Part shown: positions 11,643 to 64,000 of the stretch, in pieces
How the letters are laid out: each line of letters starts with the position of its first letter
Numbering within the stretch: the stretch's first letter is position 1
Assembly: GCA_017405085.1 (NCBI GenBank)
Contig: JAFRBB010000052.1
Span: 1 to 64,000, forward strand
Length of the DNA: 64,000 nucleotides
Direction of reading: 5' to 3'
Source of the DNA: Eubacteriaceae bacterium
GTDB taxonomy: Bacteria; Bacillota; Clostridia; Eubacteriales; Eubacteriaceae
Notes under the pieces: model-generated
Seen by the model: the letters and a program-made list of their open reading frames with translations, nothing else
Told to the model about the DNA's origin: nothing
The model's database searches: none
Program-made: the position numbers and the translations under genes

Positions 11643-14600
11643 TTATTTATGCGCCACAATCATCTGGAAGGCTTCAAGTCGCTTTCCGGCGTTTCTGAGG
11701 CCGCTGAAGGAGCCGTTGTTAACGTATCCCTGCCAGCCGAATCTGCCTTCGACGCAGCTTCGGTAGTTCACGGTATAGTCTGTATATTGGCCACCTTCTA
11801 AGAGATTGATTTCCAGCGCTTCCAGGCGTTTTCCCTGACCGGTCGAGCCGATCTGATAGACCGTGTAGCCTTCGGGGACATTGAGGCCCTGAGTGGCATC
11901 GCCGCTTACTGCCGTGATATCCATATCACCTATATCCTGGACATGGCCGTAGCCTTCAACGGTGAATTCTTTCGGAACAGCAATTTGGATCGCTTCGATC
12001 TGGTTGCCGCTGCCGGGGGTGCCGTTGAAATCGTCTTTTGACGTCGCTTCGGTGGCGTTGAGCCAGCCGACATTGCTGATGTGGGTGCGGTAGTAGAGTT
12101 TCGGCATAGCTGCCTGAACTTGCGCTTCTTGTGCTTGTTCTTCTTCGGCGATCTCGCCGGGGGTGCGCGACGTTGCCGCGTCCCCCATCAAGCTGAGTTC
12201 GCTTTCATCTTTTTCCGCCGAGGTTACGATAAGCTGCAGGCCTTCCATTCTGATGCCACCGCCGCGGGTTCCGGCGAAGGAATCGTTGCGGACCAGACCC
12301 TGCCAGCCGTAGTTGGCCACATGGGTGCGGTATTGGATATTGGCCGTCGTTTCTGTGCCGTCATCGCGGACAATGTGCAGGCTCAAGGCTTCCATTCGGA
12401 GCCCTTGTCCCGTTGTACCGATCATGTAGACCGTGTAGCCTTCCGGTACGGTAAAGCCGCGGATTTCGTCTTCCGTCGCTTTTCTGATGTCGACATCGCC
12501 GATATTTTGGACATGACCGAAGCCTTCAAGTCTGTATCCTTCAGGAATCGCGATCTGGAGCGCTTCCATTCTGAGGGCGCGTCCCGTCGTGCCGACAAAG
12601 GTGTTGGTGTCGGCTCTTACGCCGGCCATCCAGCCGATGTTCTGCACGTGGGCTCTGTAGTACACGCCTTTTTCAACAAGATCATCTGCCATGGTATCTT
12701 CGGATTTGGCCTTGATGGTCAAGGTGACGGGCTTGCTGGCAAAGGATTTGTCGGTGGCCGCGATACGAACCATCACGTCGCCTTCAGCCAGGCCTTCAAT
12801 GCTGTCGCCCATGACTTTCTGCCAGGTCTTGCCGCCGTCTACGGAGTATTCCATGGTGTTGTCCACACCGAGGATTTTACCGTCGGTCATTCCTTTTTCC
12901 GAAACGTCTTCCGCGGTGAGCTTGGTCGGCGCCGGGCCTCTGGCGGGAACTTCGTAGGTTGTTCTGTTGCCGTCAGTATCTCTGATAATAACCGTCATTG
13001 GTGTATCACCATCCCAACCCATATTGGCCAATTTCATGTTATCGCCATCTACCTTCATCCAACCTTTTCCGCCATCGGTCGAGTAGTACTCGCCGGATTT
13101 AGTCGGGATGGTTTCATTGATGAAGTCAACCTTTCCGTCTTTGACATCCGGTGTCGGATCGACAGGTGTCGGTTCCGGTTCTGGTTCTGGATCAGGTTCA
13201 ACATAATCCTTGGGAACAATCGTAAATGTGGTAAAGACTGTTCCAACGTAATTGCTTTCCGGTATAAACGTCACAATCGCGTAGGCTTTGTCAAATACTT
13301 CTGTCTTAGAACCGATGTTGTCCGCGTAACTGATATCATATTGACCCTTGTCAACAACTTTTCCGTCGATTGTAATCGTCGGCTCGGTAGCCGGAACCAC
13401 CGGTTTACCGTCGTTATAACGTTGTTTTTCAATGGCAGAGAATGTCACATCGGCATTGGTCACTTTTTTCTTGGTGATCGTATATGATGTATCTCGCGAT
13501 GTCGCTTTATTAGCCATTGTCGGAGTTGCAGGAGCTGGAGCGGGATCGTCCATCGTTTTAATTGCCGAGTCGTTCTGCGTTTGAACCGGAGCGTTTTGGT
13601 TGGTCACAATGGTGGTTTCCTGCGTTTCATTTGTGACAGCACCGGTGTTCGCGCCGCCCTGTTCGGTTGTCATCGTCACCGTTTCGGTCACAGTCGTTTC
13701 GGTTTGGGTTGTCACTTGATTATTGCCGGACTGTGCCGTTTGTTCATTATTGGTTGTGACTTCAGAAGTAACCGGCACTGATGTTTGACCTTCAGCGACA
13801 GTCGGCTGAGGCGTCTGAGTCGTTTGTGTGGTCTGTGTCGTTTGTTCTGTCACGCCGCCGGTCAAATCGGTCAGTAACCCGCCGTTATTATCCGAATGGG
13901 TCGTCACTGTGTCAGCGGAGGTCGAAACCGTCGATGTCGAGATCTTTTGGATGCTGCTGTCATATTGATAGTTGACCGTAAGCGTATCCGTATAGGTGCC
14001 AACCGCTGTTTGGTTCGGATGAATCGTTATGGTTTGTGATTCACCGACTGCCAGGGTATTATGCTGCAAGCCTTGGGTCACATCATATCTACCATTCGTA
14101 AAGCTGACCGTCACATTGCTGACCGGCATATTACCGGCATTGTAGATAATCACATCTTTTGCCGGGATAGCTTCTCCATAAGGCGTATCGGCGAAGGTCG
14201 GCATAATCATGCGGACATCCGGGTCGGCCGGAATCGTACCATTTTCATCCTTTTCGTAGATCTTAACGACTTTGGGCTCTGAGGCGTATTCCGTGACATT
14301 GCCGTTTTCGTCGGTCTTCGTCGGATAACGGACTTCGTATTCGCCGGCCGGCAGACCGCCTTGTTCGCCGCTACCCGAATCATCGATTTTCTTCCATGGT
14401 TCATCAACAGGATTACCATCTTTATCTTTGACACGATGATATTCCATACCGTCTTCCACGCCATTGAGCTTGCCATCTGATTGACCTGGTGAAGTTTCGG
14501 ATCCCGTGACGCCTGTTGGGGCGTTCTGTTTTCCGGGCAAGGTGATCTTCAAAGCATCACCGGCCGGAACCGGAATCGTTTTGCCGTCTTTGGTCACTGA

Positions 14601-43301: not shown

Positions 43302-43973
43302 GGTTGGCTCCTTTCAAATACGTTTCCTTATCTTTCAAACGATTGATAAAATTTTCATGTTTCCCTAAAATTGCCGAAGGGTAAACCCCATGTACATTTT
43401 CCGCTTTTCCCTTTTGGTTTCCTGGTATATCATCATGGCCGCTTTGAGGCCTTATTCGGTGTAAAATCCGCCTTCGTTCACGTTGAAGCAGCAGTTTTGA
43501 AAATTCCCAAAATGCGTGCCGCGACCGGAACTGTCGACTCCAATCCGCCCGCTGATCCGAGATATCTAAAAAAATGGATAAATCGCCGATTTCCGACATC
43601 TTGGCCCCCGCGGGGCAGTTGACATCCCGCCTAAAGAAAACCGCCCGGAGAACGCAAAATAGCGCCATGGCGCGCTGCCGCGCGGCCGTGATGTCGATGA
43701 TGGATTTGTGAAGATAAGTGTCCATAAGCGCCTCGCTGTTCTTGGGTGAATGCTCCGGTGGGACGTGCCGCCGACTGCCCGATACGCTCCGCCCGAGATC
43801 GGGTCCCGCCGCTCCCCGGGCCGCGCCGTTCAAGCCGGCCTGAAAAAATTGATATATTAATTGAAAACATTCAACGATACCGCCGGGGGTATACCCCAAA
43901 AAACGCGGTCAACACCGACTCCGGAAACATCGGTTTCCCTTGAATCGGGCATACTACTCCATTGAATCTGATT
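43302..43973 (-). promoter_or_regulatory. Long structured leader of giant gene 1
   Basis: About 670 nt separate the promoter from the ATG. The leader has many self-complementary stretches: GGAAAC-CGAT-GTTTCC, GGGGTATACCCC (43886-43897), CCCGA/TCGGG (43792-43803), GCGCCATGGCGC (43662-43673) and CCCCGCGGGG (43606-43615). A frame ending at 43285 overlaps the giant gene start by 17 nt; from an ATG at 43725 with a GAGG site it would encode 145 residues with no recognisable domain. I favour a regulatory RNA leader. It does not match the cyclic di-GMP riboswitch cores I know. Confidence 0.5.
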
Positions 43974-44214: not shown

Positions 44215-44215
44215 G

Positions 44216-45186: not shown

Positions 45187-45189
45187 AAT

Positions 45190-45220
45190 TTATGCTAGGA
45201 CAATAAATACTGTTTGCCGT
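45190..45220 (-). repeat. 31-bp element after giant gene 2 (copy B)
   Basis: Identical to 11588-11618 and at the same distance (25 bp) from the stop codon. Confidence 0.85.
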
Positions 45221-45244
45221 GGGTGTGTTTTAGCGCGTTTAAGC

Positions 45245-48200: not shown

Positions 48201-51200
48201 CCGTATTGGGTGGTGTTGAAGACCGGAGCAACCACACGGACATCGCAGGTTGCCGGCATGACGATGGCATTTTCAATGGGGACATCTTGACCATCCACTT
48301 TCACCGTCACGTTTTGTTTAGTCGGACGGCTGATGGTGATGACCACGTAGTCGCTGGGATAAGTCACAACTTTACCGTTATCGGTAACGGCTTTGACACG
48401 AACCGCGTATTGCCCAACATCCAAACTCGGATCGGTTTCGGTTTTTCCGGCCGCGACAGGCAACCATTCACCTGGCGTTCCGTTTGTCAATTTGCTGTAT
48501 TCCATCTGATCGGTCAAACCAGTGATCTGACCGTCCATGCTGGATTCGCCGCTCCAGTCTTTGCCGGCTACGCCAACGGGCGTTTCGGCTTTCACAGCAA
48601 CTTTATATGCCGCGGAGTTACCGGCGGGAATGCTTAACTGCGTACCGTCGTTCATGGTTGTGGTCGTGGCTCCTTCGCGGACATAAACGGTGTCGCCCGG
48701 TGTGATTGTAGTGTCTGCCGACACACGCAGGTTAGGATCTTTGAAGGTCGGATCCTTGCTGACCTCATAAACCACGCCATTTTGGCCGGTCGGCATCGTC
48801 AGCTTGCCGGTTTCGCCGTTATAGGCGATGCCGGAAGCCTGTAGTTCTTCTTCTGTCGGCGCTTCGGGCCCTTTGACGATATAGTAGGGCTTACGGATTT
48901 CTTCTCCAACGAAGGTTCCGGACTGGGCGCCGGTGAAATGGGCGACCACTGTGGCCTGCTTGACATTTTCGTTTTCGGTGGCCACACCCTCGATATTGTT
49001 TTCGAAGGTCAGGTAATAATCCTGCTCAGTAAAGGTATGAACCAGATCACTATCCTTAGATACGATCGTCACAGTATTGGAGGTCGGACTGCCGGTATAA
49101 TCCACCTGCGGATGATCCACGGTAACCGTCACGTTGCTGTTTGTAATGGTGTAAGGCTGAATGTCAAACTTCACAATGCTCGACAATTCGTAGTTTTCGC
49201 CGATACCCGTGACTTTAATCATACCGGTGTTTTTACCAACTTGCGAGTTGGCAAAGGCCGTTCCATTGTCCTCATAGGATAAGGTGTAATCTTTGCCTCT
49301 AACCAAGGCTTGTCCGTTGTAGCTCACATTGACCAGCGGGATATGTTGTTTGCCGTTATAAATCTGCTTATCAGCATCAACAACCTGGTAAACCATCGGG
49401 CTGGAACCGGCCTGAGATTCGTCAAGCTTTTTCTTTTCGATGGTGAAGGTTTTGGTGATTTGATCACCGCCGGCAAAGCTGACTTGAACCGTCGCCGTAT
49501 TATTTCCGACTTTTGTATTGTTTGCGTAGGTAACCGAATAGTTATCTTCAGACAATGTTTCACGGTTGTTTTTGATCATGGCCGTAACCGTCGGTTTCGG
49601 CGTATTGGCTTTCCCGTTGTAAACCTGATTCGGAATATTGTCCACTTTAATGTCATTGTCTTCGATGGACAATGCCTTGATGTTGATCAGGATGTTTTCA
49701 CTGTATGTGGTTTGTGTGCTTTCTCCGCTTGCTGCGTTGGTGCGGATGGACGGATCATATTTGTGATAAGTCACCTTGATTTGCGCCGTATGCGTACCGG
49801 AGCTTAAGCCTGCTTTGGGACGGATCATAAACGTCGTGTTCGGCGATTGAGTAGTGACCACACGGTTTTTGGAATCGGTAATGATAAAGTCATTTTGTCC
49901 TTCACCGACGAGTTCGATGCTGTCGATATACGCGTAAGCATCGCCGGTATTGGTGATCTTAATCCGTTTGGCCGCCGGAAGATCGTCACCGAATTTCATC
50001 GTGGTGAATTTCGGATCCTCTACAGTACTGACCGTCAAGGTCGCGTTGGTCTTGGCGTCTTCTCCGGCTGTTTCGCTTTCGATTGTCGTAATGTTTGCGG
50101 TTACCGGTTGGCCGGCCAAAGCGTTATCCGAAGCTTTGACGCGCACACCGAAGGTGTACGTCGTCTTCGGCGTCAAGCCTTCAAAGACCGGCGTCGACTG
50201 CCAAATCCAAGTGTTGGTGCTGCTGTCTAAGCGGCCGTAATCCACTGACGGTGCCGTGATGGTCTTCAGCGTGACACTGTTCGATTTGACGTCAGCCGCT
50301 TCCACTACAAGGCCGGTGAGTTCGGGCGCGTCGTTGGTATCAATGATGTTGAAGTATTTCACAATGCCCGTTGCCGTTTGATAATTATCCTTACCATTAA
50401 CGGTTAAGGAGCTTGCCACCGTTTGTCCGGCTGTTCCGGTTGAGGCGATTCCCGTTGCATAGATGACGGTGTAATCACGGTCTTTTACAAGGGTCTGACC
50501 GTCAACAGTCACGACGGGATTCGGTTTAATCTCAGTGCCGTTTTGATACTGCTGGGCGCCGATATCAGCGACATCGACCGGGCGAATGGTTTTGGGCGCG
50601 ATGGTGAAGGTCTGAGTCTTATTGGCAACATTTTCACTGTTGTAATCCGCGAAGCTGCCAATGAAGTTGACGCTCACTTCAGCCGTTCCGGCGTTAAGAT
50701 TATTTTTATACACATAGGTAAAGTCTCTGCCGGCGGTGAGATCGCGATTGCCCGCTTTGACCGACGGGGTCGGCGTGAAGGCCTTGCCGCTGTAGACAAC
50801 ATTCTGTTCAGCAGCGGTTAACGCGGTGACGCTGACATCGCTCTTGCTGACATCTTCCCAGGTCGGGCTGTTGGGATTATCCGGATCGACCTTATCTGTC
50901 GGATTGGGTTCAACCGTCAGGCTGACATCCGCTGTCGCTTTTTTACCGTCGTCATAGGTCGCGGTAATCGTCGCCGTATGGGTGCCGACGCCAAGTCCCG
51001 TATTCGGTGTAACCTTAATTGACGAATCACTTGCGAGGCTATTGACATTAGCACTGCCACCGATGGAGATCTGACTTGCCGAGAGGCTGAAGTCGGTTGA
51101 ACTGACATCAATGGTCGCGTCAACAGCTTTGCCGCCGCTATTGGTTACCGTGACGGCTTGAGCAGCGGGTTGATTGTATTCAACCTTTACAGACGCGAAA

Positions 51201-54200
51201 GTAGGTGCCGTCACAGTCAATGCCGCGACAGCATCGTCGCCCTGTTCAATCGATCCGTCAGCTTTCGCGATGACCGCCAATGCCGGCTCACTGGCAAAGC
51301 TTGAATCTGTCGGCGCGACACGCACTTCATAGCTGCCGGCAGGCAAGCTGTCCGCGCCGGCGGTGAGCCATTCGGTGCTACCGACCGGACGGTATTGCAT
51401 CGTCGTAGAATCAAAGCCGTCAAGTTTGCCGCTGTTTTCGATGTTCTCAGATTCATTTACTGCGGTCACATTCGGTTTCGCCGGTCTTGCGGGAACTGAC
51501 GCCGTGGTGACAATTTTGCCGTCTTTGACCAGATAGAGGGTTTGTCCCGGTGTGACATTCGTCACGGCGTCTTTGCCGTTTTCGGTGACGGTATAGCCGT
51601 TCGGTGTGGTACCGGTGACGGTTTCGTCTACATAATCGTAATTGACCGCGATTTTGTCCGCGATTTCTTCATCGGTGCCGACCACCTTGAAGGTGACGCG
51701 GGCTTTTGCCGTGTAGGTGTTGGCGGTGTCATCACCGTTTTGATAGCTCACGGTGATATCGGCGTCATAGGTTCCGACACTCAAAGGATTATTCGGTTGA
51801 ATGGTCCAACCTTCGGCATTCTGTCCAAACGCGACGGTTTTATCATCCGGTTGACCAATGGTGAAATTGTCGGAAGCGGTAACCGCTGTAATCGCGGCAT
51901 CGGTGCCGCCGATATTGGCAATGGTCATCGGCAAAGCAGCCGGTTGCGCGTAGGGATTGGCGTTATTGACCAAAATGGTGTCAAAGTTCACATCCGAAAC
52001 GGTCAGCGCCGCCGGGATGCCTTCAACGGTCGGTGTCGTTCCGCCGTTGCCGTCGTCTTTCAAATTGAGGATCGTGACATTAACCGCGTCGCTGGCAAAG
52101 CTCGAGGATGTCGGTTTCACGCGGACTTCATAGACGCCGGGTTCGAGGTCTGTGACCGTGCTGCCTGTGACCGCAAGCCATGTGCCGCTGTTGAACGGGC
52201 GGTATTGCATCGTGCCGTTCACACCGGTGATGGTGCCGTCGTGGCCGTCGATTGTTGTGACATTCGTCGCATTCACACCGGAGATCGCCGGACGGGTCGG
52301 TACGGTGATCTTCACACCGTCTAAATACAATGTTTCACCCGGTGTAATATCATCGCCGGCTTTGAGGGTTTGATTTCCGCTCTTATCGCGGCTGAGGGTC
52401 GCGCCGGCTGTAATGCTGTCAATCCGTTCGTTGTCGTAGTCGTAGGTCACGGCGCCTTTGATGGTGATATCCGCCGGATCGTCGGGATCGATGGGACTGT
52501 CGGGATCATCGGGATCTATATCCGCTTTCAATGTGCGGAATGTACGGCTGTCGCCGGCTTCGGATGCCGGAATCGTCGCTGACCCGTGATTGCGCAGCGC
52601 AAACACATAATCTGTATTCGGCGTCAGATCGTTAAAGGCAGGATCATTTTGCCAAATGTATTTGCCATCGCTGTTTTGAATCCCGTAATCCACACCTGCC
52701 ACGCTCTTGAGGGTGATGCTCGTTGCGGTTACGCTCTGGGCCTGAGGCGTTCCTTCGAAGCCCGTCGGCGCGTCGGCCGGCTGATGAGCCGGATCGTTTT
52801 CCGCGTAGATTTCAAACTCTTTAGTTACCGTGCCGGTATAGTTGCCCATCGCGGTGATGACGGCTTTCGCCTTGCTGTACGAGGTGGTCTTTTTCGCGTT
52901 GTTGGTGTAAGCGACGGTGTAGTCCTCGCCTTCAGTCAAGCGATGACCGTCAACGATAACGGATACCGCCGGAGTCAGCGGTGTGCTGTTGGCATCGAGA
53001 AGCTGGGCACTGATGTCGCTGACGTCTGTACCGGTGACGCTCTTCGGCTCGATGTTAAAACTCTGAACCGTATTGACCACGCCCTTGCTGTTGTAGGAAG
53101 CAAAGGTTCCGATGAATTTGACATAGACGCGGCCGGTTCCGACGTTGACGTTATTGTCATAATCGTAGACATAATCAACGCCTTCGGTCAATTTAGCGGC
53201 GCCCATGGTCACTTCCGGTTTCGGCGTAACAGCTTTGCCTGTGTAGGTCACGTGTTTTTCGATTGACGTGATGTCCGCAATGTTCACGGCCGAGGATACG
53301 CCCGAAGTCTTTTTCACTTCGAAGCGAACCTTTGCCGCAGCAGTCTTGCCGCCATAGGACACTGTGACGGTATCGACATAGCTTCCCGCGGGAAGTCCGG
53401 TAATGGGCGAAATCGTCCAGCCGGTTGTGTTGATGCTGTCAGCGTTAACTGTAGTATCAGTCTTGGCCGTCACGATGAACTTGCTGTTTCTGGAAACGGA
53501 CACCGAGGGTTTCGCCGAAGTGCCGCCATGATTGGTAATCTGCAGCGCCTTGACTTCCGGTGTGTAACCGCTGCCTTCATTCACGTTGTCGAAGGTGACA
53601 TCCGAGACGGTCAGCGCCGCCGGAAGACCGTCGACAGTGCCGTCCGCGTTGGGAACCGTCACCATTGTCGAAAGACTGTAGAACGCGTCATCTGTCGCGG
53701 CGCAGCGTACCTCATAACTGCCGGGAGCAGCAGAGATAGAAGTGGTTCCCGCCGGAACAGTTGTCCAGTTTTTGTCGCCGATCGAGCGATATTGCATTTT
53801 ATCCGTCAATCCAGTGATGCTGCCGTTTTCGCCATTGTTTGCGGGCGCTTGAGCCTTGATGTTCGCCGGAGCCGCCGGTCTGGCCGGTACGGTCGCGGGC
53901 ACAACGCTCGTTCCCTTAACAAGATACAGGGTTTGTTCCGGCGTCACAGTGGTTTGACCAACCGTTAACTTGGTTGTCATTGTGCCGTCGGTGGTTGCTG
54001 TATAGCCGTTTGTCAGGGTCTTGATGGTTTCTTTCCGATAGTCATAGGTAATAGACGGTGTTTCGTCAATCACCTGGGTGACATCGCTGTTTTTCTTCTT
54101 CACCACGAAGCACACATCGGCTGTCGCTTTATGCGTGCCGTAGATGACTGTGATCGTATCGGTATAGGTTCCGGCCGGCAGGTCCGCGTTGGGTTGGATG

Positions 54201-57200
54201 TACCAATCATCCTTGCTGGTTTGTCTTCCGCCTATCGTGCCGCCGTTGGTTCCGCTCAAGGTGAAGTGCGCATCCTGATCGAGAGCGACACTGACGCCTT
54301 CGGCTTGGGTATCACCATGGTTGGTGATCTCAACGGGTCTGAGTTCAGGCGTATAACCGCTGCCTTCGGTTTCTTCGGTGAAGGTGATATTCGACACGGT
54401 CAGCTGAGCTTCCGTTGCCGCTGTTTCGCTGCCGACGGTGACATAGACGCTGTCGCTGCGGAAGTGTCCAGCATCACCGGTAACCGCCTTCACCCGCACT
54501 TCATAGGTTCCCGCGGGGAGATTTTCGATTTTTCCGTCCTGGACGTCTGTCCAGTTATCTGAACCGGCCGCTCGATATTCCATGGCAGACGTTACGCCTT
54601 CAATGATGCCGTTGTCGCCGTCTTTGGCATTTTCTGCCGTTAATCCTGAGGGAGCGTTCGGACGACTCGGAACCGTCATCGGGACGGTATACGTCACTTT
54701 TTCTGTGGAGACCGCTGATTGATCGCCGGTATCGCCGGAGCTTCCGCTGTCATCGCCTTGCGCCTTCTCAACCTCAATAACCGCATAGAAGGTTTGACCC
54801 GGTTCAACATGAGTTGTATTCAATGTAATTTGTCCGAGTTTGGTGCCGTCTGTGGTCGGCATATATCCGTCGGTGATTGATTTTAATGTTTCCGTATCAT
54901 AATTGTAAGTCACGACCGGTTTAGCTACATTTACAGGCAATTTATCTTCCGGTGTAAGCTCTTCGGCTTTTTTCTTAACCGTGAAGGTCGCCGTTGCCGT
55001 CGCGCTGACATCATTGTCGCCGTTTACCGTGATGGTGTCGGTGTAGGTGCCCGGATTCAATTTGGTCTTCGGCTTAATGGTCCAGACGGCCTGTGATTCG
55101 CCGGCTTTAACCGTAGTTTTGGCCGTGCCGGTCAATTCAAAGTCACTGGTCGCCGATACGGACACTGACACGTTTTCAGCATCGGTTTCCCCGTGATTGG
55201 TCACGGTGATCGTTTGCTGTTCTTGATCGGTGTAGCCTTCTTCAACGGTCGTGAAGGTGATATTGCCGGTCGTCAGCAATGCCGCTGATTTTGTCATGTC
55301 TTTTTCAATGGTGATGACAGCGGTCTTACTGGTAAAAGCCGTGTTGGACGCAGCGTAGCGCAATTCGTAAGCGCCGGCTTCCAAATCGGGAATAGTCGTA
55401 CCAGACACATCAGTCCATGTGTTGCTGCCAACTTTGCGATACTGCATAGAGGAGTCAACCCCGTTGATCGATCCGATATATTTGCCCACGCCATTGAGCT
55501 TGGCTTTCGTCGTGCTAATGCCTTGCGGCGCGTCGGGACGTTCGGGAACGGTTACCGGATAGACAACATCGTCTTTAACCAGATAGAGCGTCTGTCCCGG
55601 AACAACCTTGTCGCCTTTAAGTGTTAACTTGGTGTTCTTTGTGCCGTCGGTGGTGACCATGTAGCCATCGGTCACTTCATCAATGGTTTCATTGCGGAAG
55701 CTGTAGCTGATGGTCGGAATTTCCGTCAATGCCTTATAACCGACAGTGAAGACAACTTTCGCTTTGGTTGTATGTTCGCCATTGCTGCTGTCTTTATAGG
55801 TGACAACCACATCGGTGCTGTAAGTGCCGACATCAAGACCGGCTGCCGGTCTGATAGTCGCTGTGGCATCGGTGCCACCGGCTGCGATGCTCGTGGACGT
55901 CGGGGCCGTCACGTCGAAATGTTCGGTGTCTGTCGACACAACCGAGACAATGGTTGCCTGGCTGTCACCGTTATTTTTGATACTGATGGCCGCTGCCGCC
56001 GGCTGGGTGTAGCCTTCGGCCACTTCGGCAAAGGTCGGCGCGCTTACGCTTAAGTCCGCGGGAATGGTGTGATCTTGTTGGGTCACTTTAACAACCGCTG
56101 TTTTACTTGCGAAAGCCATACTTGTGGCGCTCAGACGCACTTCATACATACCGGCCGCAAGGTTAGTTAATTTGCCGTCCGTCATCATTGATGATGTAAT
56201 GGGCAGCCAGTTGTCGCTGTCTTTCACGCGATACTGCATCGCTGTCGTCACACCGCTGATGGTCTGTTCTCCGCCGGTCACGCTCGGGGCCGCCGGACGT
56301 TCGGGCACCGTCAGCTTGGAGATGCTGTCTTTGGTCAAGTACAGGGTTTGTCCCGGAATGACCGTGGATTTGCCCGGCGTGAGCTTGGTGTTGAGTGTGC
56401 CGTCCGTCGAGACGATAAAGCCCGGCGTGACGCTATCTAAACGTTCGTTGAGATAATCGTAAGAGATCACACCTTTTTCCGGTTTTTCCGGTTCGATCAC
56501 GCCTTTCACGGCGGTGCGGAAGATACGCGGTTCGCCTGGTTTGGACGCGATGGTGCTGTCCTGACCTTTCACGCGAAGAGCAAAGGTATAATCGGTATCC
56601 GCTTTCAAATTGTCAAACACCGGTGTTCCCTGCCATTGATAGACGCCGTCTTTCATGATGCCGTATTCGGCGTTGGACTGGGCTTTCAGGGTGATATTGC
56701 TTTCTGTGCGGCTGACCAATTCCGGAATATACGTCGGCGCTTCTTCAGTAACAGCATCCTTGGGAAGAATGTTGAAGGTATAATCAGCCGTCGTATCCGT
56801 ATAATTTCCGATACCGGTAATCTTGTAGGTACCGGTGCCACCGTTTTGTTCGTCACCGATATTGTTGCCGTAATCCACCGTATAATCGATACCCGCGGCC
56901 AGGGTCTTGCCGCCGTCACGGATGGTGATGTCGGGGGTGACCTGTTTGCCATCGTTATAAGCCTGGGCACCGATGGATTCAATGACGATGCCATTGTTTG
57001 CTTCCGTGATGGATTTCGGCGTGATGGCAAAGGTTCGGATTTGATCCGCGTGATTGGCATAGTTGCCAATGAAATGCACGGTCACCGATCCGGTTCCCAC
57101 ATTGGTGTTTTCGCCGTAGATGTAGACATAATCCTTGCCCATGGCCAGAGCGTCACTGCCGTAGGTCACCCGCGGTGCCGGCTTGAAGGCTGTGCCGGTG

Positions 57201-60200
57201 TAAACCACGGATTGTTCAGAATCCTTGAGATCTGCCACCGTGATGGCGTTGGTTGTGTCATTTGCCGTCACGTTGAAGCTGACCACTGCCGTCGCTGTCT
57301 TATTCGCAGCCGTATCATCGTTTGTGGAGACGTCCGCGTTGTCTTGATAGGTCACGGTGATGGTTTCGGTGTAGTTACCGACCTCAAGATTCAACTTCGG
57401 TTGAATCTGATAGGTGGTGTCGCTGCCGTCAATATAGGCTGTGGCGCCCTTGACAACCACTTCGCTGCCGCTTGCGGGCTGACCTGTGATGGTAAACGCT
57501 GAAACTTCATCGGATTTATTTGACGCAACACTGATAATCTTAGCGTCTTTGGTTCCCTTATTGACCACGGTAATGGCTTTGGCCGGCGGCACAGTTCCAC
57601 CGAACACAATGCTGTCGAAGGTCGGCATGGTCACATAGAGATTTGACGCGATATCTTCTTGAATGTCATTGTTGTCATCCAGTTTAAGGATGGTGAAGGC
57701 TTCAGGTTCGCTGGCAAAGCTTGACGCGCTCGCTTTTTGGCGCACTTCGTACACGCCGGGGGCGAGGGTGATGCTTGTGTTGTTGCCAACTTCGGTCCAA
57801 TTCGTTTCGCCGGATTTGCGGTATTGCATGACGGCGCTGACGCCGGAGAGACCGCCGCCGTTGCCATTCTTGTCGGCGTTGACAGCCTGTACATCAGCTG
57901 AGAGACTCGGACGATCCGGTACCACTGTCGCGTATTTCTTGCTGTCTTTGTTTATGTAGAGAGTCTGGCCCGGAATGACTTTGGTCGTACCGATAGTCAA
58001 ATTGTCATTACCGTCATTGACCGTAAAGCCTGCGGTCACGCTCTGCACGGTTTCATTTTGATAGTTGTAGACAATTTCCGGAATCAGATCGACATTCGCG
58101 TCCGTCACCACAAAGCTGACATCCGCGGTTGCTGTCTTGTCATCATCATAGGTTACGGTAATTGTCGCTGTATGCGTGCCGACGGCCAGGCCAGTGTTGG
58201 GCGCAATGGCGAACTTCGTATTCGTTACGCCATCGGGATGATCTGCAGTTACGCCACCCACGGCTTTATTGTCATCCGATACAGTATCCGGCGTGATGGT
58301 GAAATCAGAGTCACTTACTTCCACAGATTTAATTTCCGCGTCAACGGTACCGTGATTGGTGATACTGATGGGTTGAGCCGCGATTGTTCCATAGCCATAT
58401 TGCGCTGTCAAAATGGTCGGCGCCGTCACTTTGAGATTTGCCGGAATATCTTTTGTGATTTCGCCATCCGCCGTCGCGAGAACGGTGAATGTCATCGGCA
58501 GACTTTCAAAGCTCGTATCTGTCGCTTTTTGCTTGACATCATAGACGCCGGCACTGACGGTGAGTTCACTGTTGTTGCCCACGTCAATCCAGCCGTCACT
58601 CGACGAGCTGTTCTTATAGGCCATGGATTTATCCAGACCGGTGAGGCGTCCGCCCACACCGTAACGATTGGCGTCAACCGTCGCCACGCTGCTTGAGAGA
58701 ACAGGTCGTTTTGGAACGGTGATATTGACGCTCGTTTCACCTTTGGTGAGCAACAATGTTTCGCCGGGATAGACGGTGTCGCCTTTATGAAGTTCGGCAT
58801 TGCCACGTTTTAAGGTATAGCCTTCGGCGATGGATTTCACCTGTTCTTTCACATAGTCATAAGCCACCGACGGTGTCACGACAGTGACGTCATCGCGCAC
58901 CACATTAAACACAACGGTGGTTTCGGCCGTTCCGATTGCAGAACTATCGGCCGCGCTGTGATATGTGACCTTGATGGTCGCGCTGTAGCTGCCGGCGTTC
59001 AAACCAGAATTGGGTGCAATGGTCCAGTTGGTATTTGTGCTCGGTGAAACCACAGAGCCCACAGCACCATTATCGCCCGCCATGGTGGCCGCTGAGATAT
59101 TCTTATCGTTTGCTTCGGTCGGAGCTGTACGAGTGAGCCAGCTTACTTCTTGGCCGTTTGCGTCAACCGTGCTGATGCTGTCAATCACCGCGGCACCACC
59201 CTGATTGCTCACAGTGATGGCCTTGGCCGTTACAGCACTGTATCCTTCGGTCACTTTGTCGAAAGTCGGCGCGGTCACGGAGATAATCGGCGAGGTGACG
59301 GTGATCGTTCCGTTGCTTGCGATGACAAATTTGCCGATTTCACTGGCGAACGATTCATCCGTCGCCTTTTGCTGCACTTCGTAAACACCGGGATCCAGAC
59401 TGCTGACCGTCGTTTTATTACCCACAGGAGTCCAAGTACTTTCACCCTGAGCGCGATACTGCATATCGCTGTTGAGCCCGGTGAGAGAGCCATCGCTGCC
59501 GCGTTCCGTCGTGCTATTGGCGCGGACATCGCTTAACGTCGGCCGTTCGGGTACTTTGGTTTCCAAAACGGTGTCGGGATCGCCGCCTTCACCCTGTTTG
59601 TATAGGTAGAGGATTTGACCCGGTGTAACGGTTGCGCCTACTTGCAATTCACCGGTATTGGTGACATTGCCACTTCCATCCTTGGTGCTGCCGGTGTAAA
59701 CCTTGTAGGCGGAATCGATGGATTCGATGGTTTCCGCTTTGTAATCGTAACTGATGAGGTTGACGGTGGGATCATCGGAATCCACGCCGACACCGACCGT
59801 TACATTGGCGGGTGAGCCGGAGAAGCTTGACTGCGTGTATTTCTTGCGCACCGCGTATTTGCCCGCTTTGAGGCCGGTCACGGTGTCCACGGCACCGACA
59901 TCCGTCCAACCGGCAAAGCTGTCATCCGCGTTGACAAGGCTGTATTCCATCGTGGAATCCACCCCGGTAATCTTACCGTTGGCTTTCGTCGCGGATGTCG
60001 CGTTGACCGCGGCGATGCTAGTCGGCGCGGAAGGTCTATTATCCACGATAATCGTCCGTGCTTGAGCGCCTTCCTTACCAAATTGCAATTCTTCACCCGG
60101 TGTCACACTATAGCCGACTTTAATTTCTTCGCCGTTGGCGCGTCTTAAGAAATAGCCGTCGGTAATGGCCGCCAAGGTTTCGCTTTGATAGCTAAAGCTG

Positions 60201-63200
60201 TATGTCGGGTTGTCATCGTCTGTCGATGATTGTTTGGCTGTGGTGTAGATTTGTGCCGTCGGGCCGGCTTCCGAGTCATAATTGGTGCCGGTTCCCAGTT
60301 TCTTGAGCGCGAAGGTATAGCTCGTTTTGGGCGTCAAGCCGCTAAAGGTGCCGCTTCTTTGCCATTTGAAGGAGCCGTCGCTCTGCTGAATCCCGTAATG
60401 ATAATCACTTTCCGTAAAGCCGGTCGGTACGGTCACAATAATGGTATCTTCTGTCGCGGATACTTTCACCGGCGGTTTTTGCGGTTTGGCTTCCTTGCCT
60501 TCTTCGGGATCAGTGGCACCACGAACGGTGAATCCCGCGTCGCTGGCAAGCGTGCTATCTGTGGCCTTCACGCGAATGGAGAAGGTATAGAGGGTGTCGG
60601 ATGTCAACCCGGTGAATGTATCGTCATCCTGCCAGAGATAATCCGCGCCAACCAAGCGACCGTATTGATAGGTGGTTCCCGAAGGATCTTGCTCGGTGTT
60701 GGTCAGATTGAGCTTAATACTGTTTGTCGTCGTTTGGTAAATTTCCGGTTTGGCCTTGGGTTTCGCCGCTTTGGTCTTCCCGGAGGCATCGACAATCTTG
60801 AAGGTCTTGGTGACCGTTTGATCGGTGCCGTAATTGCCGAGACCTTTCACAATGGCTTTCGCGCCATCCGTCACTCCAGTATTATCTTCATATGTCACGG
60901 AATAATCCGAGTCTTGTGTCAAGGCTCTGCCGTCCACTTCCACGATGACCGAGGGTTGCACGGCTTTGCCGGTATAGACCTGATCTTCGATGGCGTGAAT
61001 GTCATTATCCGTAAGTTGTTTGGGTCCGATATTGAAGGTTTTGACAATTTGACCTTTGTCATCACCATAGGCCTTAAAGGCATTGCTCAAGGTGATGGTT
61101 GCCGTCGCTGTTCCGATGTTGACATTGTCGCGATAGCTGACGCTGTAATCAGCTGTGGTGAGGGCTGTATTGCCGATTTTCACGCCCGTGACAGGGGTCA
61201 GAGCAGAACCGGTGTAGGTCTGCGTCAAATCCGCTGGCAACACGGTAATCTGTGCCGTCACAGCGGGTCCGACGATGAAGTCAACCGTCGCCGTGGCGGT
61301 TTTGGCTTCACCGCTTGTGACAGACTGACCTTCTTCGTTTGTCGTGACTTCATAATAGGTCACGGTTACGGTGCCGGTGCGAACACCCACTGTGGTGTTA
61401 TCCGTCGGCAAGACGCTAAATTCCGTATTTTGTCCGTCGCCTACAATATCAATCGCTTTCTTCACATTACCGGAGAACGCTTCGGTCACTGCGTCTGTGC
61501 CGTCTTCCGGCATGTAGCGTTGATAGAGCACGAAGTTACCAGTCACGGTCATATTGGTCACGCGGATTGTGCCCGTACCGTGATTTTTCAGTGTGAGTCT
61601 GGCGTTTTCCGTAGGCAGAGCTTCGCCCGCTTTAATGCTGTCGGGATTAAAGGCCGCTGCTTTCACGGTCATGACAGAGGGATTGTTGCCATCGGCGTTT
61701 TTCACGACCACTTCCGTGATTTCACTCGCGAAGGCGGAATCTGTCGCTTTGAGGCGCACTTCATAGACACCGGCGGCAAGATCATCAACTTCCGTTTCGG
61801 TGATCGGCAGCCAATCTTTATTTGTATTGTCTTTCTTGCGATAAACCATATTACTGTTGACGCCGGTCATCTTGGCGCTGCCGCCGACAATGCCCGAAGG
61901 CGCGTCGGGACGACGATCCACAGTGATGGCCGTGGCTTCGGTTGCGGTTGAGCCCGTCGGCACAAAATAGATGGTGCTTCCTGGGATAATCGGTGTGGCT
62001 GTGGCATTGCCTGTGCTACTCGGTGTGATTTGTTGTGTACACTGCGCGTCGCTGTATGCGGTACCGCCGCTGACAGTGGCCAAAGTTTCCGCCGCATAAT
62101 CATAGGTGATGGTCGGGTTGACGATTTCGGGCATGGTGCCAAGGATGTTAAAGTATCCGGTGGCTGTGCCTTCATAGTTGCCCTTCCCAACAATAGTGAC
62201 GGAAGCTTGAGTATTTGATGTTGTCCCAACGGTGGGATTGATGTTGTCTTTGTATTCCTTGATGGTATAGTCTTTGCCTTCGGTCAAGGAGTAACCATTA
62301 TAGGTCACATTGATTTCCGGCTCGATGGCTTTACCTGTACATGTCTGGTTGGGTATACGTTCAATATTTCCATCATTTAACGTAGCTTTGTTGATGATAA
62401 AGGTCACACTTTGTGATGGTGTGTTGGCATAGATGCCTTTGAAGGCGATGAGAACCGTTGCCGTACCGGCATCGGTATTATTCTGATATTGATAGTCAAA
62501 ATCGGAACCTTCATAGACTTTATAACCATTAACGGTTACTCCGGGTTTCGGTGTAATAGCAGAACCGTTGTAAGTATTATCGCTGACAGATTCAACAATG
62601 ACAGAATTGGTCACATTCGCCGCGAGCACTGCCATTCTCACGTTGAGGGTGGCGGTTTTCACCGTTGCCGTGTCACCTTCGGGGTGATAGGTCACGGTAA
62701 TAACAGCTGTGTGCGTGCCGACGGCAAGGCCGGTTTTGGGTGTGACGATGAATGTCGTATTATCCGTGCTGTTTTTATCGACGTTGCCGGTGGTCGTGTT
62801 GACAGCGAAGTTATTGCTATCCGAAACGACATTGGTAATCACCGCTTTGGTATTGCCGATATTTGTCAGAGTGATGGCACGGCCGTCTACAGACTGATAG
62901 CCGTAAGTCACATCACCAAAGGTAAGCGCATCGGCAGTCAACGTGCAGGTTGCCGATGTTTTGTCTTCCTTGTCGCTGTCGCGACCGATGGTCACGGTAA
63001 TGGGTTCGCCGGCAAACGTTGTGGATGTCGCCGCCGTGCGCAGCACATAGTCGCCGTCCGCGAGGTCGGTGATTTCGGTCACGCCGGAGGTAATGGGGGT
63101 ATAGTCGGTGTCACCGGCTTTACGCCATTCCAGTTTGCCGTTCACACCGGTGATTTTGCCGTTGTTGTCGGTGCCGATGGCATTGATGGTTTCAACACCT

Positions 63201-64000
63201 TCCGGTTTGGCCGGACGGTCATCCACCTTAATCATGGTGACATTGCCGCCGTCTTTCCACATATAGAGCGGTTGACCGGGCGTGACCGTCGTGTCGACAT
63301 TGACACGCTGATCCGCTGCAGCTGTGCCATCGAAGGATACAGTGTAACCTTCGGTGATGGAGCGCACCTTTTCGGTTTTGTAGTTATAGGTCACAGCGCC
63401 TTGAGACGTGTCGCCGTCTTCGCCGCTCACACTCGGAAGGGTCTTGAAGATATCCGAAGGACCTGCGTCGGAATCGGTGGGTTTTTCGGTATCGCCAAGC
63501 TTACGAAGCGCAAATGTGTACTCCGTATTGGGCTTCAAGTCGCCGAAGGTGGTAATGGATTGCCATTCATAGGCACCGTTTTTCAAAATACCGTACTGAA
63601 TGCCATCTCCCTCGTTCTTCAGCGTGATGCTGGTAGGCGTGGTCATATCCAGTTCAACTTCCGGTTTTTTGGTCGGTTTTTCCTGTTTGCTGGTATCTTC
63701 AATAATGCTGAAGGTCTTTTCGATCGGCTGACCATTTTCTGTTTTGTAATTACCCTTGCAGGTGATAGTGACTTTGGCCGGTTTTTCAGCGGTCGTTACT
63801 TCCGTATTGTCGTCATAGGTTACGGTAAAGTCTCTGCCTTGAACCAAACTGTTGCCAAAGCTGTCAGTGATGCTGATAGCCGGAGTCTGCGGTTGACCGT
63901 TATAAACCTTGGTGTCAATATCTTTGACATTATCTGCCTTGATGACTGCCGGTGTAATGGTGAAGGTCTTGGTGACTTTCGGCTGGTCGGCAAAATCTCC
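45245..64000 (-). CDS. Giant modular cell-surface protein 2, 5' end beyond the window
   Basis: Partial: the frame is open to the right edge, giving 6,251 visible codons. An apparent TTG start at 63847 is not real, because the 51 codons upstream continue a YTG module without a break. The visible part has 12 YDY modules plus a degenerate 13th, six FN3-like modules, anchor-D-like Ig modules and YTG modules in the same order as the second half of giant protein 1. Three extra YDY modules lie between about 52,900 and 55,800. A Gln/Thr-rich linker, a coiled-coil stalk and two ChW triplets end the protein. The last 150 residues differ from protein 1 at only about 20 positions. The signal peptide and head must lie outside. 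Likely surface-displayed; function unknown. Confidence 0.9.
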   Translation of the reverse strand, partial: GDFADQPKVTKTFTITPAVIKADNVKDIDTKVYNGQPQTPAISITDSFGNSLVQGRDFTVTYDDNTEVTTAEKPAKVTITCKGNYKTENGQPIEKTFSIIEDTSKQEKPTKKPEVELDMTTPTSITLKNEGDGIQYGILKNGAYEWQSITTFGDLKPNTEYTFALRKLGDTEKPTDSDAGPSDIFKTLPSVSGEDGDTSQGAVTYNYKTEKVRSITEGYTVSFDGTAAADQRVNVDTTVTPGQPLYMWKDGGNVTMIKVDDRPAKPEGVETINAIGTDNNGKITGVNGKLEWRKAGDTDYTPITSGVTEITDLADGDYVLRTAATSTTFAGEPITVTIGRDSDKEDKTSATCTLTADALTFGDVTYGYQSVDGRAITLTNIGNTKAVITNVVSDSNNFAVNTTTGNVDKNSTDNTTFIVTPKTGLAVGTHTAVITVTYHPEGDTATVKTATLNVRMAVLAANVTNSVIVESVSDNTYNGSAITPKPGVTVNGYKVYEGSDFDYQYQNNTDAGTATVLIAFKGIYANTPSQSVTFIINKATLNDGNIERIPNQTCTGKAIEPEINVTYNGYSLTEGKDYTIKEYKDNINPTVGTTSNTQASVTIVGKGNYEGTATGYFNILGTMPEIVNPTITYDYAAETLATVSGGTAYSDAQCTQQITPSSTGNATATPIIPGSTIYFVPTGSTATEATAITVDRRPDAPSGIVGGSAKMTGVNSNMVYRKKDNTNKDWLPITETEVDDLAAGVYEVRLKATDSAFASEITEVVVKNADGNNPSVMTVKAAAFNPDSIKAGEALPTENARLTLKNHGTGTIRVTNMTVTGNFVLYQRYMPEDGTDAVTEAFSGNVKKAIDIVGDGQNTEFSVLPTDNTTVGVRTGTVTVTYYEVTTNEEGQSVTSGEAKTATATVDFIVGPAVTAQITVLPADLTQTYTGSALTPVTGVKIGNTALTTADYSVSYRDNVNIGTATATITLSNAFKAYGDDKGQIVKTFNIGPKQLTDNDIHAIEDQVYTGKAVQPSVIVEVDGRALTQDSDYSVTYEDNTGVTDGAKAIVKGLGNYGTDQTVTKTFKIVDASGKTKAAKPKAKPEIYQTTTNSIKLNLTNTEQDPSGTTYQYGRLVGADYLWQDDDTFTGLTSDTLYTFSIRVKATDSTLASDAGFTVRGATDPEEGKEAKPQKPPVKVSATEDTIIVTVPTGFTESDYHYGIQQSDGSFKWQRSGTFSGLTPKTSYTFALKKLGTGTNYDSEAGPTAQIYTTAKQSSTDDDNPTYSFSYQSETLAAITDGYFLRRANGEEIKVGYSVTPGEELQFGKEGAQARTIIVDNRPSAPTSIAAVNATSATKANGKITGVDSTMEYSLVNADDSFAGWTDVGAVDTVTGLKAGKYAVRKKYTQSSFSGSPANVTVGVGVDSDDPTVNLISYDYKAETIESIDSAYKVYTGSTKDGSGNVTNTGELQVGATVTPGQILYLYKQGEGGDPDTVLETKVPERPTLSDVRANSTTERGSDGSLTGLNSDMQYRAQGESTWTPVGNKTTVSSLDPGVYEVQQKATDESFASEIGKFVIASNGTITVTSPIISVTAPTFDKVTEGYSAVTAKAITVSNQGGAAVIDSISTVDANGQEVSWLTRTAPTEANDKNISAATMAGDNGAVGSVVSPSTNTNWTIAPNSGLNAGSYSATIKVTYHSAADSSAIGTAETTVVFNVVRDDVTVVTPSVAYDYVKEQVKSIAEGYTLKRGNAELHKGDTVYPGETLLLTKGETSVNITVPKRPVLSSSVATVDANRYGVGGRLTGLDKSMAYKNSSSSDGWIDVGNNSELTVSAGVYDVKQKATDTSFESLPMTFTVLATADGEITKDIPANLKVTAPTILTAQYGYGTIAAQPISITNHGTVDAEIKSVEVSDSDFTITPDTVSDDNKAVGGVTADHPDGVTNTKFAIAPNTGLAVGTHTATITVTYDDDKTATADVSFVVTDANVDLIPEIVYNYQNETVQSVTAGFTVNDGNDNLTIGTTKVIPGQTLYINKDSKKYATVVPDRPSLSADVQAVNADKNGNGGGLSGVSAVMQYRKSGETNWTEVGNNTSITLAPGVYEVRQKASASSFASEPEAFTILKLDDNNDIQEDIASNLYVTMPTFDSIVFGGTVPPAKAITVVNKGTKDAKIISVASNKSDEVSAFTITGQPASGSEVVVKGATAYIDGSDTTYQIQPKLNLEVGNYTETITVTYQDNADVSTNDDTAANKTATAVVSFNVTANDTTNAITVADLKDSEQSVVYTGTAFKPAPRVTYGSDALAMGKDYVYIYGENTNVGTGSVTVHFIGNYANHADQIRTFAITPKSITEANNGIVIESIGAQAYNDGKQVTPDITIRDGGKTLAAGIDYTVDYGNNIGDEQNGGTGTYKITGIGNYTDTTADYTFNILPKDAVTEEAPTYIPELVSRTESNITLKAQSNAEYGIMKDGVYQWQGTPVFDNLKADTDYTFALRVKGQDSTIASKPGEPRIFRTAVKGVIEPEKPEKGVISYDYLNERLDSVTPGFIVSTDGTLNTKLTPGKSTVIPGQTLYLTKDSISKLTVPERPAAPSVTGGEQTISGVTTAMQYRVKDSDNWLPITSSMMTDGKLTNLAAGMYEVRLSATSMAFASKTAVVKVTQQDHTIPADLSVSAPTFAEVAEGYTQPAAAAISIKNNGDSQATIVSVVSTDTEHFDVTAPTSTSIAAGGTDATATIRPAAGLDVGTYSTDVVVTYKDSSNGEHTTKAKVVFTVGYKALTEIPTISYSFRNETIDEVTDGYMVTTDGTKNTKLTLKGDKVVPGQTLYLVKDDVVYPVTVPERPDAPQGISTTKAKLNGVGKYIGSINGVDSSMQYRKVGSNTWTDVSGTTIPDLEAGAYELRYAASNTAFTSKTAVITIEKDMTKSAALLTTGNITFTTVEEGYTDQEQQTITVTNHGETDAENVSVSVSATSDFELTGTAKTTVKAGESQAVWTIKPKTKLNPGTYTDTITVNGDNDVSATATATFTVKKKAEELTPEDKLPVNVAKPVVTYNYDTETLKSITDGYMPTTDGTKLGQITLNTTHVEPGQTFYAVIEVEKAQGDDSGSSGDTGDQSAVSTEKVTYTVPMTVPSRPNAPSGLTAENAKDGDNGIIEGVTSAMEYRAAGSDNWTDVQDGKIENLPAGTYEVRVKAVTGDAGHFRSDSVYVTVGSETAATEAQLTVSNITFTEETEGSGYTPELRPVEITNHGDTQAEGVSVALDQDAHFTLSGTNGGTIGGRQTSKDDWYIQPNADLPAGTYTDTITVIYGTHKATADVCFVVKKKNSDVTQVIDETPSITYDYRKETIKTLTNGYTATTDGTMTTKLTVGQTTVTPEQTLYLVKGTSVVPATVPARPAAPANIKAQAPANNGENGSITGLTDKMQYRSIGDKNWTTVPAGTTSISAAPGSYEVRCAATDDAFYSLSTMVTVPNADGTVDGLPAALTVSDVTFDNVNEGSGYTPEVKALQITNHGGTSAKPSVSVSRNSKFIVTAKTDTTVNADSINTTGWTISPITGLPAGSYVDTVTVSYGGKTAAAKVRFEVKKTSGVSSAVNIADITSIEKHVTYTGKAVTPKPEVTMGAAKLTEGVDYVYDYDNNVNVGTGRVYVKFIGTFASYNSKGVVNTVQSFNIEPKSVTGTDVSDISAQLLDANSTPLTPAVSVIVDGHRLTEGEDYTVAYTNNAKKTTSYSKAKAVITAMGNYTGTVTKEFEIYAENDPAHQPADAPTGFEGTPQAQSVTATSITLKSVAGVDYGIQNSDGKYIWQNDPAFNDLTPNTDYVFALRNHGSATIPASEAGDSRTFRTLKADIDPDDPDSPIDPDDPADITIKGAVTYDYDNERIDSITAGATLSRDKSGNQTLKAGDDITPGETLYLDGVKITVPTRPAISGVNATNVTTIDGHDGTITGVNGTMQYRPFNSGTWLAVTGSTVTDLEPGVYEVRVKPTSSSFASDAVNVTILNLKDDGNGGTTPTVEGIPAALTVSDVNFDTILVNNANPYAQPAALPMTIANIGGTDAAITAVTASDNFTIGQPDDKTVAFGQNAEGWTIQPNNPLSVGTYDADITVSYQNGDDTANTYTAKARVTFKVVGTDEEIADKIAVNYDYVDETVTGTTPNGYTVTENGKDAVTNVTPGQTLYLVKDGKIVTTASVPARPAKPNVTAVNESENIENSGKLDGFDSTTMQYRPVGSTEWLTAGADSLPAGSYEVRVAPTDSSFASEPALAVIAKADGSIEQGDDAVAALTVTAPTFASVKVEYNQPAAQAVTVTNSGGKAVDATIDVSSTDFSLSASQISIGGSANVNSLASDSSIKVTPNTGLGVGTHTATITATYDDGKKATADVSLTVEPNPTDKVDPDNPNSPTWEDVSKSDVSVTALTAAEQNVVYSGKAFTPTPSVKAGNRDLTAGRDFTYVYKNNLNAGTAEVSVNFIGSFADYNSENVANKTQTFTIAPKTIRPVDVADIGAQQYQNGTEIKPNPVVTVDGQTLVKDRDYTVIYATGIASTGTAGQTVASSLTVNGKDNYQTATGIVKYFNIIDTNDAPELTGLVVEAADVKSNSVTLKTITAPSVDYGRLDSSTNTWIWQSTPVFEGLTPKTTYTFGVRVKASDNALAGQPVTANITTIESETAGEDAKTNATLTVSTVEDPKFTTMKFGDDLPAAKRIKITNTGDAYAYIDSIELVGEGQNDFIITDSKNRVVTTQSPNTTFMIRPKAGLSSGTHTAQIKVTYHKYDPSIRTNAASGESTQTTYSENILINIKALSIEDNDIKVDNIPNQVYNGKANTPKPTVTAMIKNNRETLSEDNYSVTYANNTKVGNNTATVQVSFAGGDQITKTFTIEKKKLDESQAGSSPMVYQVVDADKQIYNGKQHIPLVNVSYNGQALVRGKDYTLSYEDNGTAFANSQVGKNTGMIKVTGIGENYELSSIVKFDIQPYTITNSNVTVTVDHPQVDYTGSPTSNTVTIVSKDSDLVHTFTEQDYYLTFENNIEGVATENENVKQATVVAHFTGAQSGTFVGEEIRKPYYIVKGPEAPTEEELQASGIAYNGETGKLTMPTGQNGVVYEVSKDPTFKDPNLRVSADTTITPGDTVYVREGATTTTMNDGTQLSIPAGNSAAYKVAVKAETPVGVAGKDWSGESSMDGQITGLTDQMEYSKLTNGTPGEWLPVAAGKTETDPSLDVGQYAVRVKAVTDNGKVVTYPSDYVVITISRPTKQNVTVKVDGQDVPIENAIVMPATCDVRVVAPVFNTTQYGSPLPTANAVIYNGGNTEATDISVTLGNANFALADGAAWPTSLKAGESVAVALKPTNGDVGTHGGSISATYCYNAAGTILSPTEIEVPASVSGNADTAQSGGNVSGLSDTAAQNAPTTTQSTTETTTVTTDGLLSDLTGATTQNDNGQNAVNSQNVTTQADTPQTTVQTAQDGQTAQAQPTPQQTVNDVIQTMDDTSTEPAQTEPTQPSTPVTKKVTPVLTAVPTDGNVQAQSLTHTVTYAKPTEIIISDIPNQTYAGGAPVIPNPAPTVTVDGRVLSAGTDYDIAYQNNVEPTDQAYAVVTLKGNYEGVASKAFIIQTVDEWNAWKTEQDRIQKAIEEADNAAEKAAEIAEEEKEKAQTAAQNADNAAKAAEDLINNATDVDEEKLEEAKAKAKEAEEAAKRAEEAAKAAEQAAAEAKSWREQAEAAKEAKDEEKAAEYAVKAEELALKAAEEKQKAEQAMKEAQAALDAVRNILAPKPEEPTVKDGKVNFIEETIPIKAGERYTTDGGKTWNKAPESDMKLTDLGWDEDTPMTIIVRNNTGGETKYDVPARGGAPTKLTAEGVSEAGLTDGRILGVNNTMEYSTDGGKTWQKVMGDSIEGLGEGDVMVRVAATDKAFASKPVTLTIKAKSDAESKDKAFIEKGVYYRAHVQNIGWMAGVRADTNTFVGTTGQALRMEALQIAIPEGYSLEGFGHVQNIGDVEIRKATADEIRGFTVPEGYTVYMIGTTGQGLRMEAVSLHIVRSDGTEPTFNVQYRSHVANYGWQGLVRNDSFAGTRGGGVRMEGLQLIVTSAEKDESELSLMGSAATSRTPGEIAEEEQAQEAQVQAAMPKLYYRTHISNVGWGELTDATAKDDFSGTPNSGDQIEAIQIAVPKEFTIEGYGHVQNMGDTAITAVSGDATQGLNVPEGYTVYQIGSTGKGKRLEALEISLLEGGQYSDYTVKYRSCIEGRFGWQGYVNNGSFSGIRNSGKRLEAFQLIVAHK
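45248..46275 (-). repeat. ChW repeats of giant protein 2 (two triplets)
   Basis: Same six-repeat layout as in protein 1, including Asp in place of Trp in repeats 2 and 5 (HVQNIGD; HVQNMGD) and the same Glu/Ala-rich spacer. Near identity in DNA suggests recent duplication or gene conversion. Confidence 0.9.
46795..47245 (-). other. Coiled-coil stalk of giant protein 2
   Basis: About 150 residues rich in Ala, Glu and Lys with heptad-like runs (AKAKEAEEAAKRAEEAAKAA) from VDEWNAWKTEQ to LDAVRNILAPKPEEP. Giant protein 1 has a short Pro/Glu-rich linker at the same place. It probably forms a rigid, possibly oligomeric helical stalk next to the ChW end. Confidence 0.85.
47580..47900 (-). repeat. Gln/Thr-rich linker of giant protein 2
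   Basis: About 105 residues rich in Thr, Gln, Ala and Asn (for example TTTQSTTETTTVTT), in the same position as the linker of giant protein 1 but poorly conserved in sequence. Confidence 0.8.
48200..64000 (-). repeat. Module field of giant protein 2 (visible part)
   Basis: Twelve YDY modules, six FN3-like modules, and interleaved anchor-D-like and YTG modules. Modules 1-7 pair with modules 8-14 of protein 1 and modules 11-12 with 15-16, judged by linker text (for example DYDNxRIxS after FEGTPQA in both). Modules 8-10 have no partner and come without YTG or FN3 modules between them. Confidence 0.8.

Follow-up and report, generated by a model that had tools for sequence, protein, structure and literature searches.

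Giant surface proteins described in bacteria

Very long proteins of bacteria fall mainly into two classes, and giant surface proteins make up one of them (PMC11573180). In Apilactobacillus kunkeei, the consecutive genes Giant1-5 encode proteins of 3,000-8,000 aa that take up 6% of a small genome, and the length of Giant3 has been estimated at 0.2 um (PMC12863079). In Staphylococcus aureus, Ebh is a surface repeat protein of ~1.1 MDa with a C-terminal membrane anchor (PMC4856396). The ChW domain is a suspected surface anchor; ChW domains have been suggested to associate in triplets, the proteins that carry them are mostly endolysins, and their wall ligand is unknown (PMC5817068).

Two complete giant genes lie side by side

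The window analyzed here comprises bases 1-64,000 of the 100,901-bp contig JAFRBB010000052.1 (contig C30), which is gap-free and contains no N. It belongs to the draft assembly of a gut-type Clostridia genome, in 70 contigs and with 96.4% completeness. Gene A (window 11643..43301, minus strand) is a complete frame of 10,552 aa, and its product has a predicted mass of 1.131 MDa and a pI of 4.66. Gene B extends beyond the window edge: the in-window 3' part (45245..64000, minus strand) encodes the last 6,251 aa, and the whole gene (contig C30 45245-85108, minus strand) is a complete frame of 13,287 aa, with a product of 1.414 MDa and pI 4.60, again as calculated from the sequence. These results confirm the preliminary description of two adjacent giants of more than 10,000 and more than 6,000 residues, in which B appeared shorter because the window ends inside it. 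A and the in-window part of B occupy 78.8% of the window, in agreement with the ~80% given earlier, and the two whole genes together cover 71.5 kb of the 2.196-Mb assembly (3.3%).

At the given base composition, the chance of such open frames is ~10^-202 for A and ~10^-254 for B. Across the locus, no exact direct repeat is longer than the 69 bp shared by the A and B C-termini, and the longest inside a body is 21 bp (A) or 19 bp (B), so that the repeats would not mislead ordinary read lengths. Third-position GC is ~0.6 throughout both bodies, matching that of neighboring genes. At the 5' ends it is lower, ~0.43 over the opening 1,000 codons of A (window ~40300-43301) and ~0.44 over the first 500 codons of B (contig C30 ~83600-85108), which may reflect a different origin or an exchange of the heads.

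Elsewhere in the window, an IrrE/M78-type peptidase gene overlaps a TraX-like gene (9717-10965, plus strand) and faces A from its 3' side, and a heavy-metal P-type ATPase gene with HMA domains (245-4422, minus strand) lies near a metal-sensitive (CsoR-type) repressor. The Rfam search of the window and the PHROGs search gave no match, and the Pfam scans of A and B found no adenylation, ketosynthase or carrier domains of a giant NRPS or PKS.

The N-termini carry homologous leaders and related heads

The region of ~430 bp upstream of A (leader/5' region, window 43302..43737, minus strand) is homologous to the B leader, indicating that the tandem duplication took in the 5' region. By inspection, a strong ribosome-binding site, GAAAGGAG, precedes the A start, and B has the same. 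Both proteins begin with MRT..S-R--DNS-RRKRIFISFVLVVLLAM, which looks like a signal peptide by inspection; in A, this N-terminus (43176..43301, minus strand) consists of a basic stretch followed by FISFVLVVLLAMVSTVTAVLA. An acidic or Ser-rich linker separates the signal-like stretch from the head in both proteins.

The head of A (aa 165-770, window 40992..42809, minus strand) is 36% identical to that of B, and neither head matched a Pfam family or a PDB sequence. No match to aa 1-1,750 of A was found in 60 relatives, and the two heads gave a single weak match among 391 genomes of the class. A VWA head had been guessed by eye from a strand-helix pattern; at the sequence level the guess found no Pfam or PDB-sequence support, and PF00092 (VWA), the mark of a VWA-tipped pilus or adhesin, had no match in the whole genome at E 10. 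In both proteins the head is followed by a stalk with DUF7601 (PF24547) modules (in A, aa 768-1750, window 38052..41000, minus strand).

The bodies are arrays of five module types

Iterated profiles built de novo resolved the bodies into five types of small beta-sandwich module, here called T, M, H, Y, and F. These follow one another as T-M-H-Y-Y-F in the standard superunit of ~510 aa, and as T-M-H in a shorter unit. With these profiles, 88 modules were counted in A and 124 in B. The A array spans aa 1801-9793 (window 13923..37901, minus strand), and the B array starts at ~aa 1538, with aa 7037-12380 inside the window (47969..64000, minus strand). In Pfam terms, the H module coincides in part with the HYDIN-type Ig family and the F module with FN3.

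An AlphaFold2 model of one B superunit, built with 24 sequences from the window, had a mean pLDDT of 90.8 and a pTM of 0.51, suggesting confidently predicted, well-defined beads whose mutual placement is uncertain. Foldseek searches with this model returned Ig, FN3, and cadherin bead chains; the titin I-band was the best match (E 1e-10), followed by Aureispira GhpA and then by S-layer proteins (Sap, SbsB). These matches say that the superunit is a bead chain and do not indicate homology.

The C-termini end in ChW triplets

By inspection, a low-complexity, T/Q-rich linker follows each array (A, aa 9794-9930, window 13512..13922; B, aa 12381-12530, window 47519..47968; both minus strand), and that of A is a candidate wall-spanning segment. 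B also has an A/E/K-rich spacer, probably helical and absent from A (aa 12620-12790, window 46739..47251, minus strand; by inspection). In both proteins, a T-M-like pair (in A, 12705..13139, minus strand) stands ahead of the anchor.

The preliminary description had both giants ending in ChW repeats, and the Pfam scans found six in each, well above the cut-off: the six ChW (PF07538) stretches of each protein scored 148-164 bits against a cut-off of 22. They are arranged as two triplets and form the putative anchor (A, aa 10200-10552, window 11646..12704; B, window 45248..46309; both minus strand). The first ChW triplet of A was modeled with AlphaFold2 (60 sequences) as one three-repeat domain, with a pLDDT of 94.4 and a pTM of 0.90. 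Compared with solved structures in the PDB, the triplet model had no confident match (best Foldseek E 0.09, VIA Z 3.4), which does not show that the predicted fold is new. In BFVD, it matched phage lysins at E 7e-11 to 8e-6, and the match with the best E had a TMq of 0.67 and 30% identity. This likeness of the model to phage endolysin tails gives indirect support to the predicted non-covalent attachment to the wall.

The proteins end in ...RLEAFQMIVAHK and ...RLEAFQLIVAHK, and neither C-terminus has an LPXTG motif, a transmembrane segment, or a basic tail. The source genome has two sortase matches. The Pfam scans of A and B also revealed no C-terminal RTX repeats of the kind found in RTX/type I adhesins. 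Across the whole genome, 139 ChW matches are spread over many contigs, and ChW seems to be the main surface module of the organism.

A and B share their module order and were duplicated as giants

The preliminary description had also called the two proteins paralogous and argued that intact frames of this length need strong selection; the comparison of A with B supported paralogy and selection. They are tandem paralogues with homologous leaders, a common module order, and 84% identity over the last 500 aa. An alignment of the module strings paired 79 modules. For 50 of the 79, no module of the other protein matched better than the syntenic partner, whereas 60 shuffles of the order gave 9.9 such cases on average and never more than 15; the module strings aligned with a score of 4,633 vs a shuffle maximum of 1,903, and mean identity was 47% for syntenic pairs vs 36% for other pairs. 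An irregular mid-array stretch (T-M-H-T-M-H-Y-Y-F ... T-M-H-Y-Y-T-M-H-Y-Y-F-F-T-M-T-M-H ...) is the same in A and B. Since the common order lies far above that of the shuffles, the duplicated gene was already giant. The best reading of the module strings is that the arrays grew, both before the duplication and after it, by adding whole T-M-H or T-M-H-Y-Y-F units in register; after it, gains and losses were mostly of whole units. The shared, readable grammar thus makes both whole-unit growth and the duplication of an already giant gene traceable.

The C-termini (last ~500 aa) had a dN of 0.10 and a dS of 0.50, giving a dN/dS of ~0.2 and indicating purifying selection on the ends, whereas body segments had a dN of 0.43-0.66 and a dS of 1.4-1.9. 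Most modules just upstream of the anchor block are only 30-47% identical between A and B, and the block of 84% identity starts with the T-M-like pair. The least-diverged block (window 11588-13139 in A and 45190-46735 in B) comprises this C-terminal block and ~55 nt past both stops that are conserved between the genes, including a 30-nt sequence past the A stop (11588..11617, minus strand) that is identical and equally distant past the B stop (45190-45219). The low dS of the C-termini relative to the bodies, together with the conserved ~55 nt after the stops, suggests that the anchor block has been homogenized, gene conversion being one possible route.

The exact array was found in one of the genomes searched

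With the superunit profile, the full T-M-H-Y-Y-F array was found only in the source genome, in a search for homologues of the same architecture that the preliminary description had proposed; it covered 40 genomes of the family, 398 of the phylum, and 391 of the class (overlapping sets), and the exact array was not found in ~800 other genomes. The closest genome compared, of the same genus, was the MAG RUG12931. Single modules or pairs are common and occurred in 49 of the 398 phylum genomes and 110 of the 391 class genomes. In the same genus, a fragment (L153, genome G001, contig C99) combines a beta-helix-like N-part with T/M-like pairs and a ChW triplet; it is the anchor cassette without the giant array.

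Three other long frames were considered as homologues and rejected. A giant of 6,060 aa from the same family but a different genus (G004, contig C12, 61680-79862) has scattered Y, H, or T modules as its only likeness to A and B; it also has MBG-like modules and an LPXTG-type end. The second frame, 8,880 aa or longer (G135, contig C8, 1-26643), open at the contig start and ending in T- and F-like modules, likewise shares no more than scattered modules of these types. An 18,042-codon frame from a Clostridia member with a 1.1-Mb genome (G569, contig C5 up to 67948) shares mainly Y modules, with ~96 mostly weak Y-type matches; its many Y-type beads resemble those of A and B, but it lacks H, F, T, and ChW modules, and its tail is transmembrane-like, unlike theirs. 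These unrelated giants suggest that bead giants arose repeatedly, and the T-M-H-Y-Y-F grammar with ChW is probably one more solution of this kind.

Proposed function of A and B

Taken together, the anatomy of A and B favors, with a probability of about 0.6, their being Sec-secreted, wall-attached, extended fibers of Ig-like beads that hold the head outward, probably for adhesion. A secreted fiber or adhesin had been suggested in the preliminary description; the anatomy supports that suggestion, and from it we infer secretion, attachment, extended shape, and length, as well as the adhesive function itself. Both proteins would be exported by Sec. The ChW triplets would hold the tail on the wall non-covalently, as suggested by their presence and by the lack of an LPXTG motif despite the two sortase matches. 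The T/Q-rich linker, joined in B by the helical spacer, would cross the wall, and the ~90-125 beta-sandwich modules and the N-terminal stalk would form the chain. An Ig-like bead is roughly 3.5-4 nm long, and at this length per bead a straight chain would measure ~0.3-0.35 um in A and ~0.43-0.5 um in B. The divergent head would then be carried hundreds of nanometers outward and would most likely act as a long-reach adhesin toward a surface, a particle, or another cell. As the head belongs to no recognizable ligand-binding family, adhesion is suggested by anatomy and precedent.

The main rival is that A and B form a steric coat, a dense acidic brush that shields the cell from phages, predators, immune factors, or other cells and that may block adhesion. 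This reading, which we consider possible but rather unlikely, fits the acidity (pI 4.6-4.7) and very large size of the proteins and the lack of a known binding fold in the head (Pfam, PDB sequences, PF00092). There is also precedent in S. aureus: clumping is blocked when Ebh (1.1 MDa), SraP, and SasG are overproduced, with steric hindrance as the proposed cause (PMC4856396). However, a brush would need neither a conserved head (36% identity) nor a fixed grammar of beads, and it would tolerate the loss of module order, yet the order is kept between A and B.

A bolder proposal, which we regard as improbable, goes beyond the bead fiber with an adhesive head: A and B would be a two-component organelle in which the order of ~80 beads, kept since before the duplication, is itself functional, and the ChW triplet would be an experimentally unsolved wall-binding fold. 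If so, bead order might, for example, set reach, stiffness, or binding register, and it would have been kept while the module sequences of A and B diverged to ~47% identity. We also regard it as improbable that the pair is a structural matrix, a two-component scaffold in which lateral or head-to-head contacts between A and B build cell-cell filaments or a sheath. The paralogues do lie side by side with similar grammar and homologous leaders, which suggests co-expression, and the S-layer Ig-like bead chains (Sap, SbsB) are among the Foldseek matches; but A and B have separate leaders, so that co-expression is no more than suggested. Finally, an assembly artefact or decayed locus, with smaller genes or repeat copies misjoined or a protein never made, is very improbable although the assembly is still a 70-contig draft, because the computational check found no N, no exact repeat above 69 bp in the locus or above 21 bp in a body, even codon-position GC along the bodies, a module order common to both giants, and a C-terminal dN/dS of ~0.2.

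Comparison with described systems

Adhesive bead fibers of this kind would join a group of giant bacterial surface proteins that are common in sequence data, of which few have been studied. Like the Ebh and Giant1-5 types, A and B each have a single frame of more than 5,000 aa, long repeats, a C-terminal envelope module, and, by inspection, a signal peptide. The repeats of Ebh are helical, of the GA/FIVAR type, and no such repeats were found in the Pfam scans of A and B. Ebh resembles A and B as a repeat protein of the ~1.1 MDa class held at the surface by its C-terminus (PMC4856396), and A and B differ from it in their beta-sandwich beads and ChW anchor and in having no transmembrane tail or LPXTG motif.

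Like A and B, the Giant1-5 proteins are encoded by consecutive genes, start with a signal peptide, and contain long repeats that are imperfect; their C-terminal domain is conserved and resembles a wall-binding one (PMC12863079). In contrast to the ChW anchor of A and B, their anchor is DUF5776 (SH3b-like); the heads of Giant1-4 are beta-solenoids and the repeats of Giant1-3 are helical (PMC12863079), whereas the repeats of A and B are T-M-H-Y-Y-F beads. In the Pfam scan, DUF5776 was absent from the C-termini of A and B, where ChW and weak others were found. A and B are larger (10,552 and 13,287 aa vs 3,000-8,000 aa) and take a smaller share of their genome (3.3% vs 6%). Larger still are proteins of Omnitrophota, with 39,678 aa, which have been proposed to be coats (PMC10066038).

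As a giant bacterial chain of beta-sandwich beads, GhpA (PDB 9fly, 9fls) is also comparable, and its likeness to A and B is limited to the general bead fold: it matched the superunit at a Foldseek E of 1.5e-10 with 12% identity and a TM-score below 0.2. Other ChW (PF07538) proteins of Clostridia have the same C-terminal triplets as A and B, and those encountered were mostly 500-3,000 aa long, far below the two giants. Aureispira, the source of GhpA, is Gram-negative, and GhpA belongs to another organelle.

The preliminary description had not recognized this architecture as a described system. Its parts have been described, namely giant consecutive surface genes (PMC12863079), Ebh (PMC4856396), and the ChW anchor (PMC5817068); the claim stands for the T-M-H-Y-Y-F array joined to ChW at such a size, which was not found elsewhere. 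The ChW triplet model is testable and offers a good target for a first ChW structure, and ChW, a wall module familiar mainly from lysins and from surface proteins of medium size, here carries a megadalton chain.
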